Shown: positions 2,145 through 8,731, numbered from the stretch's first letter. The stretch is DNA of 64,000 nucleotides from Synechococcus sp. CBW1002 (GCF_015840915.1 NZ_CP060398.1:2728001-2792000), one strand, 5' to 3'. The notes: generated by a model not told the origin, from the sequence alone. Numbers and translations: made by a program.

Positions 2145-3254
2145 ATGGGACACTTTCTGCAGTTTCTACCTCGACCCGTGCGCGGCATAGCCCTGGCTCT
2201 GGCGATCGCGACGGGCCTGAGTCATCCTGACTCGGTGCTGGCGCAGGCCGCTGATCGGCTTGAACAACCTGCCCCGCAGGCCAATCTGCAAGACGATGCC
2301 TACATCCTCGGCCCTGGCGATGGCCTGGAGCTGAAGCTGTTCGATGTGCCGGATCTGTCCGGTCCGCTCGATGTGCTCAACGACGGCACCGTGAGCCTGC
2401 CGCTGGTGGGCAGTGCGCGGGTGGTGGGGCTCACCCTGTCGCAGGCGCACCAGTGGCTGCTCACCCTGTACCGGGCCCAGCTGCAGCGGCCGGAGCTGCA
2501 GCTGCAGGTGGTGCGGCCGCGCCCCCTGCGGATTGCGGTGGTGGGTGAGGTGGAGCGGCCGGGGGTGTACACCCTCACCACCAGTGAAACCTCCCAGACC
2601 GAAGGGGCGCCGGCCGCGATCAGCGGCCTGCCCACGGTGGTGGATGCGATCCAGAAGGCCGGCGGCATCACCCTCCATGCCGACCTGCGCCAGGTGGCGC
2701 TGCAGCGGCGGCTGCCGGGGGAGACACCCAGCTTCAAGCGGGCCTCGCTGAACCTGATGGATCTGCTGATGGCCGGCGATCTGCTGCAGAACCCGCTGCT
2801 GTTTGATGGCGACACGATCCGGGTGCCGAAGGCGCAGGAGCCGGTGCCGGAATCGATCGAGCTGGCGGCCACCAACCTGTCGCCTCAGCAGATCAACGTG
2901 AATGTGATCGGTGAGGTGAAGAGCCCGGGCCGGATCCCGCTGCCGGCCAACACGCCCCTGGTGCAGGCGGTGCTGGCGGCGGGGGGGCTGGAGACCTGGC
3001 GAGGCAAGAAGAGCGACATCCAGCTGGTGCGGCTGAATCGCAACGGCACCGCCACCCGTGAGCGTTTCAACCTGGATCTGAGCCAGGGCGCCTCGAATCC
3101 GAAGAACCCGCCCCTGCGCGACAACGACACCGTGATCGTGAGCCGCAGCTCCCTGGCGGTGCTCTCCGATGCGATCGGCGCGGTGAGCACGCCGGTGTCG
3201 GGGCTGGTGAATGTGTGGAGCCTGTTCCGGCTGATCTCCGATACCAACAACTGA
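2145..3254 (+). CDS. wza: Wza-type polysaccharide export outer-membrane protein
   Basis: A 369-residue periplasmic/outer-membrane export protein. A Sec-type signal peptide is visible (hydrophobic GIALALAIATGL, likely cleavage after AQA near residue 35). A Poly_export domain starts near residue 53 (YILGPGDGLELKLFDVPDLS), followed by SLBB-like segments (VVGEVERPGVY near 130 and VIGEVKSPGRI near 255). Wza-like proteins form the periplasm-spanning polysaccharide channel and work with the Wzc-type kinase encoded divergently. No lipobox cysteine is evident, unlike enterobacterial Wza. The ATG at 2145 begins right before the signal peptide. The phosphatase gene starts 13 bp downstream, suggesting one transcript. 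Confidence 0.93.
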   Translation: MGHFLQFLPRPVRGIALALAIATGLSHPDSVLAQAADRLEQPAPQANLQDDAYILGPGDGLELKLFDVPDLSGPLDVLNDGTVSLPLVGSARVVGLTLSQAHQWLLTLYRAQLQRPELQLQVVRPRPLRIAVVGEVERPGVYTLTTSETSQTEGAPAAISGLPTVVDAIQKAGGITLHADLRQVALQRRLPGETPSFKRASLNLMDLLMAGDLLQNPLLFDGDTIRVPKAQEPVPESIELAATNLSPQQINVNVIGEVKSPGRIPLPANTPLVQAVLAAGGLETWRGKKSDIQLVRLNRNGTATRERFNLDLSQGASNPKNPPLRDNDTVIVSRSSLAVLSDAIGAVSTPVSGLVNVWSLFRLISDTNN

Positions 3255-3267
3255 GTGGGGCAACCGA

Positions 3268-3732
3268 GTGGGGCCAATCACCGGCCGGTTTCGGCTCACC
3301 TGGGCGTTGCGCGAGGAGCTGGCGATCGGGCCGGGGCCCTGGGCGGATCGCCATCTGCTGCGGCTGCGGCAGGAGGGGATCCGTGGCGTGCTCAGCCTCT
3401 GCGCCTGGGAGGAGCTGCCGCCGCCGGCCGGGCTGCGTGAGCAGTTCCACACCCGGCGGGTGGTGCTGCCGGATCACCGCAGTGGCCGCTGGCCACGGCC
3501 GGAGGAGCTGGAGCAGGCCCTGGCGGCCCTGGCCGACCTGGCGGAGCTGGGGCCGGTGTTTGTGCACTGTGTGGCGGCCCGGGAGCGCTCGCCGCTGGTG
3601 TGTCTGGCCTGGCTGATGCGGCACAGGGGCCTGAGCCTGCAGCAGGGGCTGGATTACCTGCTGCAGGTGCACCCGGGAACCAGCCCGCTGCCGCAGCAGT
3701 TGCGGGCCCTCACCGGCCTTTTTGAGGCGTGA
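3268..3732 (+). CDS. Dual-specificity/tyrosine phosphatase-like protein (CX5R)
   Basis: A 154-residue protein with a protein-phosphatase signature HCVAARERS (Cys101, Arg107) fitting the HCX5R(S/T) loop of cysteine phosphatases, and a DH pair upstream (LPDH, near 69) where the family has its acid loop. It starts at a GTG 13 bp after the wza stop. The fold suggests a soluble tyrosine or phosphoinositide-type phosphatase. Its position behind wza and beside a tyrosine autokinase suggests, as inference, that it dephosphorylates the Wzc-like kinase, a job usually done by low-molecular-weight Wzb phosphatases, to which this is unrelated. The IS1182 element begins 3 bp after its stop, so the gene is intact but has lost its downstream context. 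Confidence 0.75.
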   Translation: MGPITGRFRLTWALREELAIGPGPWADRHLLRLRQEGIRGVLSLCAWEELPPPAGLREQFHTRRVVLPDHRSGRWPRPEELEQALAALADLAELGPVFVHCVAARERSPLVCLAWLMRHRGLSLQQGLDYLLQVHPGTSPLPQQLRALTGLFEA

Positions 3733-3734
3733 TC

Positions 3735-3750
3735 GCTAGGAGTTTGTCGC
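3735..3750 (+). repeat. IS1182 left terminal inverted repeat
   Basis: GCTAGGAGTTTGTCGC; its reverse complement occurs at 7658-7673 with two mismatches. Confidence 0.75.
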
Positions 3751-3805
3751 CCGAAACCAGCAGCGCCAGCGAGCACAAGAACTTGCTGAGCCAATGGTCT
3801 TGGTT

Positions 3806-3825
3806 ACCGGCATCTCAATGCCGGT
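3806..3825. terminator. Hairpin near the IS1182 left end
   Basis: ACCGGCAT and ATGCCGGT form a perfect 8-bp stem around the tetraloop CTCA (3814-3817). There is no T-run on either side. It lies between the phosphatase gene and the transposase stop and could limit read-through in or out of the element. Confidence 0.4.
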
Positions 3826-3850
3826 GATTCCGGCCAATCTTCGGTTGCCG

Positions 3851-3890
3851 CACTGGCAGCCAGAGGGGCTGTCCCCTCAAGCTGCCAGTG
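3851..3890. terminator. Hairpin overlapping the transposase stop codon
   Basis: CACTGGCAGC (3851-3860) pairs perfectly with GCTGCCAGTG (3881-3890), with an inner AGGGG/CCCCT stem. It covers the 3' end of the transposase gene (stop at 3877). Terminator function is inferred; no T-run follows. Confidence 0.45.
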
Positions 3891-4941
3891 CTGCTTTGAA
3901 CCTGAACAACTTGTTGATGTTGTGGGTCAGGCACCAGAGCGCCCATTCACCGTTCACGTTGTCCAGGCCGCGCAGGAGAAAGCGGCGCAGTCCACGGCAT
4001 TCCTTGGTCTGACCAAAGACGGGCTCCACGATCGTCTTGCGCCTGGCGTAGATCTCGCGTCCTTTCTTGCAGCGCAGCTTGCGGTTCATCCGGCCCTTGG
4101 CATCCAGGTTTTTGGGGATGGGGCCACGGGTTGGTGCTGGCGGCTGGCCGTGCTTCTCCCTGCCGGTCGCGATGTGGGGATCGACCCCCCGTGCCGCGCA
4201 GGCCTCGGCGTTGGCCTCGCTCCAGTAGCCGGCATCCGCGATCAACGTTTTCGGGAGCTGAGCGGTGTTGGCAATGGTGCGCTCAAGCAACGGTTCGAGA
4301 TGCTCCACATCAGGCGGCTGGTTGCTGACGCCGATGGCCACGATCACCTGGTAATCCCCATCCACGGCTGCTTGGCAGTTGTAGCCCTGAATCCAGTTCC
4401 CATCACTCTTCATGATGTGGCTGGCTGGATCAGTGTAGGCGCAGCCTTCCGCGCAGCGGTGATTGCGCTGGCTGCCTTTTGTCGGTGTGCCGCAAGCCTT
4501 GTGCGCCAGGCCGCGATGGGGCATCTGATCGGCGGCCAGCGGCTCAAGATCAGGTGGTCCCAGGCCCGCCTCGTTGGCCTTGGCGATCGCCAGATCTTTT
4601 GCCGCAGCTGCCTTCTCGACTACGCGATCGGCTGTCTTGCTGCATTCTTGCCGTTGCTGCTCGGGCCCCTCTTCCGCGGCCTTCGCTGCCGCTGCCGCCT
4701 GCTCCTGCCGTTCCCGTGCAGCGGCAGCCGCGGTTTCAGCCTCCAGTTCCCGGCGAGCTTGGCGGATCCTCTCCAGCCGGTCTTCTCGGCGGCTCAGTGC
4801 CTCAGGCAGGTCGCTGCCGCGTTTGCCCTTGCCGTAGCGGCCATCCTCCTGGGCGTCGAGGATCTCGGCCTTGCGCAGCAGCTCCCTGATCTCCTGCTCC
4901 AACTGCTCCTCGGATTTGAGCATCCGCTGGTGGCTCATGGC
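3877..4941 (-). pseudogene. IS1182 transposase, C-terminal part (interrupted)
   Basis: This segment encodes about 354 residues from the motif AMSHQRM to the C-terminus: a charged coiled-coil region (REDRLERIRQARRELEAE), then the DDE nuclease domain (GYNCQAAVD, LIADAGYWSEAN, the E-containing IVEPVFGQTK). The longer open frame reaching to 5640 is an accident: beyond 4941 it reads the antisense of the IS110 element. Joined to 7098-7568 after removal of 4942-7097 it gives ...NASKHK-AMSHQRM..., which is what related transposases show at this place. Confidence 0.88.
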
Positions 4942-4950
4942 CATTGATGA

Positions 4951-5140
4951 TTTCGGGACCCCACCAGCGCGGGCCTGACCCTGCTCATGGCGGACCTTCT
5001 CCAGTTTGGGGTGGTGTCTTTCACAAGACCTGTCGGTCCGTGCGGTGGGGCAACCAGCCGGGAAGTCCCGTGACCTCATAGGAGTCCGACGTTCCCGTCC
5101 CGTCAATGGCCTGTCCGTCTGCCCGGTTGGTTGCACCCCC
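4951..5140 (+). ncRNA. Putative IS110 bridge RNA (target- and donor-binding loops)
   Basis: The noncoding 5' end of the IS110 element folds into two adjacent stem-loops. Loop 1 is closed by CCCCACC (4959-4965) with GGTGGGG (5044-5050). Loop 2 is closed by a 12-bp stem, 5051-5062 with 5122-5133, one G-U pair. Loop 1 holds GCTCATGGC (4983-4991), identical to the left target flank 4933-4941, and CACAAGAC (5022-5029), the reverse complement of the right flank 7096-7103. Loop 2 holds CATAGGAGT (5077-5085), identical to the right element end 7087-7095, and TCAATGGCC (5103-5111), the reverse complement of 4939-4947 at the left end. Order and polarity match the bridge RNA described for IS621. Transcript ends are guesses. 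Confidence 0.85.
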
Positions 5141-5157
5141 TCCCGTCCCCAGCAGTC

Positions 5158-6240
5158 ATGAGCGCAGCGACAGCACATGCCCCCGAGATCAGCACTGGCC
5201 ACGATGTGGTGGTCGGCATTGACACCCACAAACTCACGCACATGGCGGTGGCCCTGGGCGCCAATGGCGGCTGGCTGGGCAGCCTCAAGCTGGATGCCAA
5301 ACGCAGTGGCTACCAGGAGCTGATCCGCTGGGCCGCAGCATTCGGCTCCAACCCGGTATTCGCCGTGGAGGGAACCGGTTGCTACGGCGCCGGGCTCTGC
5401 CGCGCCCTGCAGGCCGCAGGGATGGCAGTGGTAGAAGTGAACCGGCCGGATCGCTCCACGCGGCGGCGCATCGGTAAGGACGACACCATCGATGCGGAGG
5501 CCGCAGCACGGGCCTGTATCGCCGGAACGGCCAGCGTCATCCCCAAGGCGGGCGACGCTTTGGTGGAGATGATCCGCATGCTCAAGGTGGCCAAGGATTC
5601 GGCCACCGCGAACCGCACCGCAGCCCTCAATCAGCTGCACGCCATCGTGGTGACGGCGCCGGCAGCGTTGCGGGAACGGCTGCAGCGGCTCAAGAGAAAG
5701 GAGCTGCTCGAAAGCTGCACAGGCCTGCGTTCTGGCGAGATCACCACCCCTCAGGCGGCCGCCAAGATGACCCTGCGCATCCTGGCGCGCCGCATCCAGC
5801 AGCTGGATGAGGAGCTCAAGGAAACCGTCACGCAGCTGGATCGACTGACCATGCAGCTGTGCCCCGAGCTGCGGAACACCTACGGCGTGGGTGTGGACAT
5901 CAGTGCCACCCTCGTTGTGGCAGTTGGCGACAACCAGGAACGGATGAAATCCGAGGCGTCATTCGCTGCCCTCTGTGGCGTCAATCCACTGCCCGCCAGT
6001 TCGGGCAAGGTGGTGCGGCACCGGCTGAACCGCAGCGGCAACCGCCAGGCCAACTGCGCCCTGCACCGCATCGTGATCTGCCGGCTGCAGCGGCATCAGC
6101 AGACCCGGGAGTACGTCGAACGACGCACGGCAGAAGGACGCTCGATGAAGGAGATCATCCGCTGCCTCAAGCGGTTCGTCGCCCGCGAGGTGTTCGGCAT
6201 CCTGCGCGGCGGTCCCGCCGTTCGCACCGCAACGGCCTGA
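5158..6240 (+). CDS. IS110-family transposase (DEDD recombinase)
   Basis: A 360-residue recombinase. N-terminal RuvC-like domain: Asp22 in GIDTHK, Glu71 in VEGTG, Asp109 and Asp112 in KDDTIDAE, the DEDD set of the family. The C-terminal Tnp domain has ALCGVNPLPASSGKVVRHRL with the conserved serine region and ends in LKRFVAREVF. The ATG at 5158 is chosen because the upstream in-frame TTG at 5131 lies inside the closing stem of the putative bridge RNA. The protein should bind that RNA and recombine the circular element into the target it specifies. No frameshift or stop is seen, so it looks functional. Confidence 0.93.
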   Translation: MSAATAHAPEISTGHDVVVGIDTHKLTHMAVALGANGGWLGSLKLDAKRSGYQELIRWAAAFGSNPVFAVEGTGCYGAGLCRALQAAGMAVVEVNRPDRSTRRRIGKDDTIDAEAAARACIAGTASVIPKAGDALVEMIRMLKVAKDSATANRTAALNQLHAIVVTAPAALRERLQRLKRKELLESCTGLRSGEITTPQAAAKMTLRILARRIQQLDEELKETVTQLDRLTMQLCPELRNTYGVGVDISATLVVAVGDNQERMKSEASFAALCGVNPLPASSGKVVRHRLNRSGNRQANCALHRIVICRLQRHQQTREYVERRTAEGRSMKEIIRCLKRFVAREVFGILRGGPAVRTATA

Positions 6241-6273
6241 TCGCCAGCAGGATTGCTCCAGTAGCCCAGGCTC

Positions 6274-6322
6274 CTGGCAGATCCGTTGCCTGCCGTGGGG
6301 CGGCAGGCAACGGATCTGCCAG
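6274..6322. repeat. Perfect 21-bp inverted repeat (strong hairpin)
   Basis: Arm 6274-6294 and arm 6302-6322 are exact reverse complements (core CAGATCCGTTGCCTGCC) around a 7-nt loop. It sits between the convergent transposase and passenger genes inside the IS110 element. It could be a two-way terminator, though neither side has a T-run, or a structure used by the element's right part. Confidence 0.7.
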
Positions 6323-6342
6323 AACGAGAGCCGGCCGGTGGT

Positions 6343-6990
6343 TCACTCCTCCACGGGGATCAGCACGTCGAGCACCTCGGACAGCAACGCCTGGCCAGGC
6401 TTCTCCGGCACGACCAGCACGACGGCTTTGGCCTCGCTCACGTCGCTGTCGTCGGCCATGGCCTCGCCATCGGCCTCCCAGGTCTCCAGTGCCGCATCCA
6501 GCCAGCGGGCCTTTGTCTCCAGGAAGGCGATGGCATCGTCGGGGCTCCAGCGGGCATCGTTGCCGCGACAGGGATAGCGCTGCAGGAGCTCGAGGATGCC
6601 GATCTCCTGCAGCTCCGGAGTGGCGGAGGGATCGCGCACGAGCACGGTGTCGGGATCGGTGGCGTTGTCGATCAGCTTCTGGTTGTCGCTGCGATCGTCG
6701 CCATCCTCCAGCTCCTGCCAATCCAAGAGATTCAGCGCCCTCTCCTGCACGGCCTGCACATCGACCACAGGAACCTGCCGTGCGGCGCTCCCTTGGCTGG
6801 GATCGTCGGCCAGGTGCAGCAAGCCATCAGCCGCTCTGCAGATCTGCTGCAGCGACAGCGATGAACCCAGGGCGGCCATCACACACTCAGCCAGCTCATC
6901 GAGGGAGAGATCAGGACCGTCCTCTGCCCTACGGACCTGGTCGATGGCCTCCCACAGCAGCAGCTCGCTGGAGGTGGTGACGGGTTCCAC
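6343..6990 (-). CDS. Hypothetical acidic protein, IS110 passenger
   Basis: A 215-residue acidic protein of unrecognised family, rich in Asp and Glu (for example LEDGDDRSDNQKLIDNATD near residue 97), starting at a GTG at 6990; a stop lies in frame shortly upstream. No signal peptide, membrane segment or known motif is seen; segments such as SLDELAECVMAALGSSLS suggest helices. It lies on the opposite strand to the transposase but inside the borders defined by the bridge-RNA guides, so it appears to travel with the element. It could be cargo, an antitoxin- or inhibitor-like protein, or a host gene captured by chance. Confidence 0.55.
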   Translation of the reverse strand: MEPVTTSSELLLWEAIDQVRRAEDGPDLSLDELAECVMAALGSSLSLQQICRAADGLLHLADDPSQGSAARQVPVVDVQAVQERALNLLDWQELEDGDDRSDNQKLIDNATDPDTVLVRDPSATPELQEIGILELLQRYPCRGNDARWSPDDAIAFLETKARWLDAALETWEADGEAMADDSDVSEAKAVVLVVPEKPGQALLSEVLDVLIPVEE

Positions 6991-7097
6991 GGCGTGGCCA
7001 GCGCTGGTTCACGGCCATCGTGGCTGAGCTGGTCAGCACTGCCACCTCGATGGCGCTCAGCCGGAGCGTCCGGGGGCTTGACAGTCCATAGGAGTGT

Positions 7098-7568
7098 CTT
7101 GTGTTTGGAGGCATTGGCCTTCACCTTGGTGCCATCCAGCGCCACCTGTCCCAGGCTCACCATGCCGGCCTTCTGGCACAGGCGCAGGATCTGCACAAAC
7201 AGCTCCTCCAGGGCTCCAAGATGGCGGCGGCGGAAGTCGCTGATGCGGCTGTGGTCCGGCTGCTGGTTGCCGGTCAGCACCCGGAAAGCCGCATCCTCAT
7301 GGCAGGCCCGCTCGATCTTGCGAGACGAGGCCATGCCGATGCAGTAGGCATACAGCAACAGCAGCGTCAGCATCCTGGGGTCATACCCCTTCTCACCGCG
7401 GGCATCCTTCTGCCGGGCGGGAGACATGATCAGCGCAAAGTCCAGTTCCTCCACCAGCTCCAGCAGGAAGAACACCAGGTGATCGCTCGGCAGCCAGTCG
7501 ATTGGCGACGGCGGCATCAAGCTGGTCTGTCCCGGAGTCCAGGGCCGGAAGGTCTTGGGCTTGCTCAT
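7098..7568 (-). pseudogene. IS1182 transposase, N-terminal part (interrupted)
   Basis: Starts at ATG 7568 (MSKPKTFRPWTPGQ) and runs through the conserved N-terminal domain (LPSDHLVFFLLELVEELD, YDPRMLTLLLLYAYC, DHSRISDFRRRHL) to VKANASKHK, where the IS110 insertion breaks it after 157 codons. The remaining part of the gene is at 3877-4941. Confidence 0.88.
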
Positions 7569-7657
7569 ACCCCATCTTATCGGCCAGATCCATTGCAGCC
7601 AATGAGATCTGGGCAGATTCAGGGGCGTCTGTGGAGCATGCGGGCGGTGATCTATGC

Positions 7658-8063: not shown

Positions 8064-8339
8064 ATGGCGACCCGTCAGGCTTCATCTCGTGGTGCATCAC
8101 TCACGGTCACCAGCAAGGGCCAGGTGACCTTGCGCAAGGAGCTACTCGCCCATCTCGGCGTTGAGCCCGGCCAGCGGATTGATGTGGAGGTGCTGCCCGG
8201 TGGGCGATTGGAGCTCCATGCCGAACAGGCGACCGGCACGATCGATGGTTTTATCGGTCTGCTGGCTGGGCGCAGCAGCCATCGGGCCAGCTTGCGGGAG
8301 CTCCAGGACGCCATGACGGCTGGTTGGGCTGGCCGGTGA
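8064..8339 (+). CDS. AbrB/MazE-type antitoxin (VapB-like)
   Basis: A 91-residue protein with a swapped-hairpin SpoVT/AbrB DNA-binding domain in its first half (ASLTVTSKGQVTLRKELL, then GVEPGQRIDVEVLPGGRLEL) and a short C-terminal tail likely to bind the toxin. Its TGA overlaps the GTG of the PIN-domain gene by 4 bp, so the two are translationally coupled. Such antitoxins neutralise the partner RNase and repress their own promoter (family knowledge). Confidence 0.88.
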   Translation: MATRQASSRGASLTVTSKGQVTLRKELLAHLGVEPGQRIDVEVLPGGRLELHAEQATGTIDGFIGLLAGRSSHRASLRELQDAMTAGWAGR

Positions 8340-8731
8340 AGATCACGGCCGATACCAACGTCCTGGTACGCGCGCTGGTGCAGGACGATCCAGACCAAGC
8401 CAGTGCCGCGAGCGCCCTGCTGGAGCGGGCGGAATTGGTGGCGATCCCCCTCCCTGTGCTGTGCGAATTGGTGTGGGTGCTGCGGCGGATGTATCGCTTC
8501 AGCACCTGCGACTGCATCGGCGCCATCGAAGCGCTGCTGGCCAGCGAAAGTGTGCGGACTGATCGCCCAGCTGTGCGTGCCGGGATGCAGCTTATGGCGG
8601 CCGGCGGCGACTTTGCCGATGGCGTGATCGCTTACGGCGGACGCCAGCTGGGCGGCCAGCAGCTCGTCACGTTTGACCGAGACGCAGCACGGCTCCTGGC
8701 AGCAGCCGGTGAGCCGGTGCTTCTTCTTTGA
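8336..8731 (+). CDS. PIN-domain ribonuclease toxin (VapC-like)
   Basis: A 131-residue PIN-domain protein starting at GTG 8336 within the antitoxin stop. The acidic metal-binding residues are visible: Asp in ITADTNVLVRAL near residue 5, Glu in LCELVWVL near 43, Asp in DFADGVIAYGG near 98 and Asp in TFDRDAARLL near 115. VapC toxins cleave tRNA or rRNA when freed from the antitoxin. All key residues are present, so the pair appears intact. This pair stands at the edge of a gene-poor, decayed stretch. Confidence 0.88.
   Translation: MKITADTNVLVRALVQDDPDQASAASALLERAELVAIPLPVLCELVWVLRRMYRFSTCDCIGAIEALLASESVRTDRPAVRAGMQLMAAGGDFADGVIAYGGRQLGGQQLVTFDRDAARLLAAAGEPVLLL

Follow-up and report, generated by a model that had tools for sequence, protein, structure and literature searches.

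The 64,000-nucleotide stretch of the Synechococcus sp. CBW1002 chromosome analyzed here (NZ_CP060398.1:2728001-2792000; hereafter the window, with positions counted from its first letter) carries an insertion sequence (IS) of the IS110 group that, judged from its sequence, is very probably an autonomous element with its own bridge RNA, acting as a guide-directed parasite of IS1182 elements, inserting occasionally at near-matching sites elsewhere, and carrying a passenger gene maintained by selection. Sequence support for this reading comes from a conserved RNA fold, the covariation of guides and targets, precise and repeated insertions with a duplication of at most one base, and the catalytic residues of the recombinase. 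The features involved are the following, the coordinates of the loop helices having been converted by hand from alignment columns:

3877-4941, minus strand: C-terminal part of the interrupted IS1182 transposase gene (partial match to NF033551; intact copies in the genome)
4933-4941, plus strand: left target half GCTCATGGC, the AMS codons of the IS1182 transposase on the minus strand (from the sequence and empty IS1182 copies)
4942-7097, plus strand: complete IS110-group element, 2156 bp, with C4942/C7098 common to both junctions (from identical copies and empty sites)
4955-5140, plus strand: predicted bridge RNA, ends approximate (minimum free energy z -3.0; compensatory change in 18 of 32 consensus pairs over 21 homologues)
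4966-5044, plus strand: target-binding loop, closing helix 4966-4979/5032-5044
4983-4991, plus strand: left target guide (LTG) GCTCATGGC, equal to 4933-4941 and covarying with the target in relatives
5022-5029, plus strand: right target guide (RTG) CACAAGAC, reverse complement of 7096-7103; its last two nucleotides are handshake positions, pairing with the donor GT
5055-5129, plus strand: donor-binding loop, closing helix 5055-5065/5119-5129
5077-5085, plus strand: left donor guide (LDG) CATAGGAGT, equal to 7087-7095 and kept together with the right end in relatives
5103-5111, plus strand: right donor guide (RDG) TCAATGGCC, reverse complement of 4939-4947; its last nucleotides are handshake positions, pairing with target bases
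5158-6240, plus strand: IS110 recombinase (DEDD), 360 amino acids (PF01548, PF02371, NF033542; match to IS621/ISCro4)
7098-7103, plus strand: right target half CTTGTG, the HK codons of IS1182 on the minus strand
7098-7571, minus strand: N-terminal part of the interrupted IS1182 transposase gene (partial match to NF033551; PF05598)

By its domains, its aligned DEDD and serine residues and its upstream non-coding region, the element falls within the IS110 group. The recombinase matches PF01548 (DEDD_Tnp_IS110, E 2.5e-20), PF02371 (Transposase_20, E 1.8e-16) and, above cut-off, NF033542, and it aligns with the PDB chains of ISCro4 and IS621, to the latter of which it is distantly related (phmmer E 1e-11). 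Read off the alignment to 8wt6, its motifs GIDT, EGTG, DDTIDA and SSG correspond to D11, E60, D102, D105 and S241 of IS621. The RNA is carried by a non-coding region of 216 bp upstream of the recombinase gene, and not downstream of it, which is the IS110-group layout; subterminal inverted repeats, the mark of the IS1111 group, were not seen by eye at the element ends, where no dedicated repeat search was made. Four copies of the element, identical over all 2156 bp and flanked by different sequences, reside on the same chromosome, together with a 171-bp right-end remnant and one decayed relative. In two uninterrupted IS1182 copies the empty site reads GCTCATGGCCTTGTG, the longer stretch over it being GCTCATGGCCTTGTGTTTGG. 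Insertion was therefore precise: a single C is ambiguous at most, and nothing longer was duplicated. All four insertions, that in the off-target gene included, use the same position. The identical copies and empty sites also correct the extent of 4939-7103 given in the initial annotation, and a register with a GC/GT core was abandoned because relatives share only the C.

The four guide matches reported in that annotation were recovered at the same coordinates. At the RTG the match continues over two nucleotides of the element end (GT), and at the RDG over up to three nucleotides of the target (GGC); both therefore fit the integrated junctions rather than target or donor alone. In the wider family, the RTG likewise contains the donor's AT, and the RDG contains the target's GA, or AA when the target has AAC, thus tracking the target in three elements (L048, L049, L085). 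These handshake positions correspond to those of IS621 that, once exchange has occurred, pair with the partner strand (PMC11208158). Neither the handshake character of these two matches nor the passenger gene is mentioned in the initial annotation. The layout is shared by 21 left ends of cyanobacterial, Chloroflexi and Pseudonocardiaceae origin, with the LTG ~40-43, the LDG ~132-138 and the RDG ~153-160 nucleotides into the element, and RNAalifold recovers two stem-loops, each enclosing one guide pair. Consensus pairs are formed in 90.8% of cells and, with the partners slid, in 43% or fewer, a control that favours the structure since the consensus was derived from the same alignment, and double changes occupy 93 cells against 36.5 in shuffles. 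The window RNA itself folds 3 standard deviations below shuffled sequences, and no Rfam family reaches its gathering score anywhere in the window. The two adjacent stems proposed earlier, 4959-4965/5044-5050 and 5051-5062/5122-5133, are present at those positions, the second with one G-U pair, and fall within the two RNAalifold arms; the two-loop structure is conserved, and covaries, in relatives.

RNA guidance is further supported by the covariation between guides and flanks. Comparison loci numbered 61, drawn from a genome scan and from family genomes. Close relatives share the same ends, differ in LTG and RTG, and lie at other, guide-matching sites. The test of guides against flanks covered 19 distinct elements, of cyanobacterial, Chloroflexi and actinobacterial origin. 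For the LTG, a guide and its own target coincide at 94 of 114 variable positions (permuted mean 40, maximum 68), in a register picked to maximise the total (131/152, versus 14-45/152 for other registers). For the 13 elements with both ends known, the RTG agrees at 47 positions (permuted mean 26, maximum 44); in neither case was any of 20,000 permutations as good. The contention that the guide matches are not due to chance is hence borne out, and over the 19 elements homologues located elsewhere match their own guides, with two poor matches taken up below. The assignment of IS621 guide order and polarity is backed by the covariation of fold and of guides with targets, by the IS621-like recombinase and by a promoter-like junction.

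The guides point to IS1182. Three of the four intact copies interrupt IS1182 transposase genes between the KHK and AMS codons, and the flank of the remnant is IS1182 sequence of the L020 type. The host genes of the three insertions are distinct, the one in the window sharing 96.7% and 72% identity with the others, and the insertions are therefore independent. The fourth copy (L018) lies in an AAA_25 ATPase gene, at GCCCATGGC followed by CTTGTA, a site with one G-U-capable position and one terminal mismatch; this rules out exclusivity for IS1182, and it is therefore the guide sequence that decides, not IS1182 as such. Among 300 family genomes, the exact 15-mer target occurs 31 times in 23 genomes, against roughly one match expected by chance on our own estimate, and all 30 occurrences examined (28 elsewhere, two here) correspond to the KHKAMS codons of IS1182 or to equivalent HKAMS codons. 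In this genome, the two perfect empty sites are both in IS1182. Twelve further sites, GCTCATcGCCTTGTG (L134-L145), differ at one position, and each lies in an uninterrupted IS1182 copy of another type, whose alanine codon is a synonymous one. Occupancy is thus four of six perfect sites against none of twelve mismatched ones (Fisher p ~0.005 by our own arithmetic, the twelve being near-identical and not independent). Targets reading GCTCATGGCCTTGTG are predicted to be active, the natural GCTCATCGCCTTGTG inactive and GCCCATGGCCTTGTA weakly active. Of the initial annotation's proposals, insertion inside the transposase gene of another IS is confirmed by partial NF033551 matches on both sides, and programming against IS1182 is supported by three of four insertions, the remnant and every exact target examined; as to the annotation's question whether the target is always the NASKHK/AMSHQRM site, the three insertions lie at the KHK/AMS codons and L018 does not.

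Several points weigh against this interpretation. The twelve spared IS1182 copies are near-identical and may just have arisen after the IS110 burst, and insertions into multicopy IS genes are those likeliest to survive selection. Only one base, C (4942/7098), is common to both junctions, where IS621 has CT, a core dinucleotide characteristic of IS621 and close orthologues and not proven to be required by every IS110 element. The LTG is displaced by one nucleotide in the window element alone among those aligned, the LTGs of relatives including the shared C; the reproducible insertions suggest that the shifted guide works, and pairing at the core is only proposed. The left flanks of L039 and L089 are matched poorly, at five of eight positions. 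Lastly, transcription, excision and RNA-guided recombination are deduced by analogy with IS621. The foremost alternative, which we consider unlikely yet worth weighing, accepts an IS110 element with a bridge RNA and attributes the IS1182 preference to survivorship, insertions elsewhere having been lost and IS1182 genes providing abundant neutral landing sites. Both the copy in a non-IS gene and the multicopy state of IS1182 genes in this genome agree with it, but survivorship leaves unexplained why the sequence spelled by the guide is confined, in 300 genomes, to IS1182 transposases, and why twelve one-mismatch copies are untouched.

The right part of the element contains three further features:

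6276-6322: perfect hairpin with 21-bp arms between the convergent recombinase and passenger genes (read from the sequence)
6343-6990, minus strand: passenger gene, 215 amino acids (same length in intact relatives; low ratio of non-synonymous to synonymous substitution rates, dN/dS; chromosomal homologues)
7078-7083, plus strand: putative -35 box TTGACA of a circle-junction promoter (from the sequence; -10-like GATGAT at 4946-4951, spacing 18)

Sequence comparison indicates that the passenger gene is under purifying selection. Its first ~90 residues exist in two divergent versions swapped among relatives, while its length is 215 amino acids in every intact relative and dN/dS ranges by pair from ~0.15 to 0.45; constant length and dN/dS together reject a chance origin of the reading frame. 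In one relative (L040) the frame is shortened by a stop present in the matching genome copy, and decayed copies have longer frames. Homologues of ~240-260 amino acids are chromosomal genes in this cyanobacterial family, and the passenger was therefore probably captured from a host; no homologues were found on plasmids or phages. It is very improbable that 6241-7077 represents instead degenerate host DNA, or another element nested here, and holds no passenger gene. The absence of any Pfam, NCBIfam, PHROG or PADLOC family above threshold for 6343-6990, which also leaves its function without a family match, and of a convincing fold match, with no PDB entry below E 0.2 for an AlphaFold model of moderate confidence, would be in keeping with such an origin; against it stand a length of exactly 215 amino acids in intact relatives despite the swapped N-terminal half, a dN/dS well below 1, and a region that contains no second transposase. 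The hairpin at 6276-6322 is probably a two-way terminator. A derivative at 3251-4611 of locus L162 (G267:C18) has an internally deleted recombinase gene, retains both ends as well as the bridge RNA and the passenger, and can probably be mobilised in trans.

The weakest alternative, that the protein picks the target and the RNA resembles the flank through copying of flanking DNA into the left end, would account for the identity of the LTG with the left flank, but is rejected by the permutation test and by RTG and RDG being antisense to the other side, as well as by relatives in which similar recombinases accompany different guides fitting different flanks, and by L018, which keeps the unchanged guide at a non-identical site.

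If the guided element operates as IS621 does, it would leave as a circle joining its right-end -35 to its left-end -10, with a predicted junction of CATAGGAGTGT-C-ATTGATGAT. The union of TTGACA and GATGAT is sigma-70 promoter-like, and the right-end TTGAC is retained in most relatives. This promoter would drive transcription of the bridge RNA and the recombinase, and in the resulting complex the target loop would bind GCTCATGGC followed by CTTGTG through LTG and RTG, while the donor loop would bind the element's own joined ends through LDG and RDG. Strand exchange would then take place at the common C, with the handshake positions of RTG and RDG pairing with the newly arrived partner strand.

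Transposase addresses recur in related elements. This genome also contains a second IS110 group (L021, L022, L023), with three copies of 1.45 kb that lack a passenger and encode a protein 65% identical; its address is AACTACGAC followed by AC, its occupied sites are transposase genes of IS1595 and IS5 type, and so are 10 of its 11 free sites in this genome, as read from translated motifs. For L057 and L060 the insertion point is within (S/C)YDN codons of IS3-type transposases; L089 is inside a transposase of DUF772 type, L085 lies next to a weak rve-like match, and L043 adjoins a phage integrase; the targets of the remaining relatives are not transposases or not identifiable. In three Pseudonocardiaceae elements (L057, L060, L090) the guides spell YDNA codons of IS3-type transposases, L090 itself being apparently inserted in a non-transposase gene. 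Clade-wide selection for transposase addresses is a lead rather than an established result. It is conceivable, though we give it somewhat less than even weight, that the bridge RNAs of this clade have been selected for addresses in the most conserved codons of other transposases (KHKAMS in IS1182, NYDT in IS5/IS1595, SYDNA in IS3), making these elements RNA-guided hyperparasites that would first inactivate rival IS and afterwards travel with them, a way of life that the host-derived passenger of the window clade would aid. Elsewhere in the window, adjacent small genes on the plus strand (8064-8731) resemble, by eye only, an AbrB-type antitoxin and a PIN-domain toxin (VapBC-like).

These results indicate that, over a broad clade, sequence alone suffices to identify and validate the guides of bridge RNAs, and that a natural guide can be addressed to a coding motif common to a whole rival transposon family. 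Guide evolution, mismatch tolerance (through the twelve spared one-mismatch copies) and IS-against-IS parasitism become testable in a single genome. The clade is also a source of diverse compact recombinases with readable guides, and of IS110 elements already bearing a selected cargo gene. In a literature search made largely without subscription papers, no report of IS110 guides directed against transposase codons was found.

The mechanism is of a known kind, established for bridge RNA and seekRNA (PMC11208160; PMC11208158; PMC11187229). With IS621 the window element shares a left-end RNA with a target loop preceding a donor loop, the order and strands of LTG, RTG, LDG and RDG, predicted handshake pairing across the exchange, a putative junction promoter and a DEDD recombinase with a serine nucleophile, the residues here being aligned from sequence (PMC11208160; PMC11208158). 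It differs in targeting a transposase coding motif instead of a repetitive extragenic palindromic (REP) sequence, in having only C rather than CT at its junctions, in its LTG shifted by one nucleotide, in its right part of ~850 bp with a passenger gene, and in a distantly related recombinase. ISEc21, with its seekRNA, likewise has an upstream non-coding region, a bottom-strand match preceding a top-strand match, no target duplication and natural re-direction by guide change, but its target is different and its RNA is a short processed form (PMC11187229). Insertion of DEDD elements into mobile elements has a precedent in IS4321/IS5075 (Partridge and Hall, 2003, as described in PMC11187229), for which that account gives a different group, IS1111, with the terminal inverted repeats of the Tn21 family as targets and the RNA at the other element end. 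ISPst6 and ISKpn4, of the IS1111-attC type, also make sequence-addressed insertions into mobile units, namely integron cassettes, but belong to the IS1111 group and use attC sites (PMC11187229). Set against these systems, the new points are an address in a rival transposase, a one-base junction, a shifted LTG and a passenger gene under selection.
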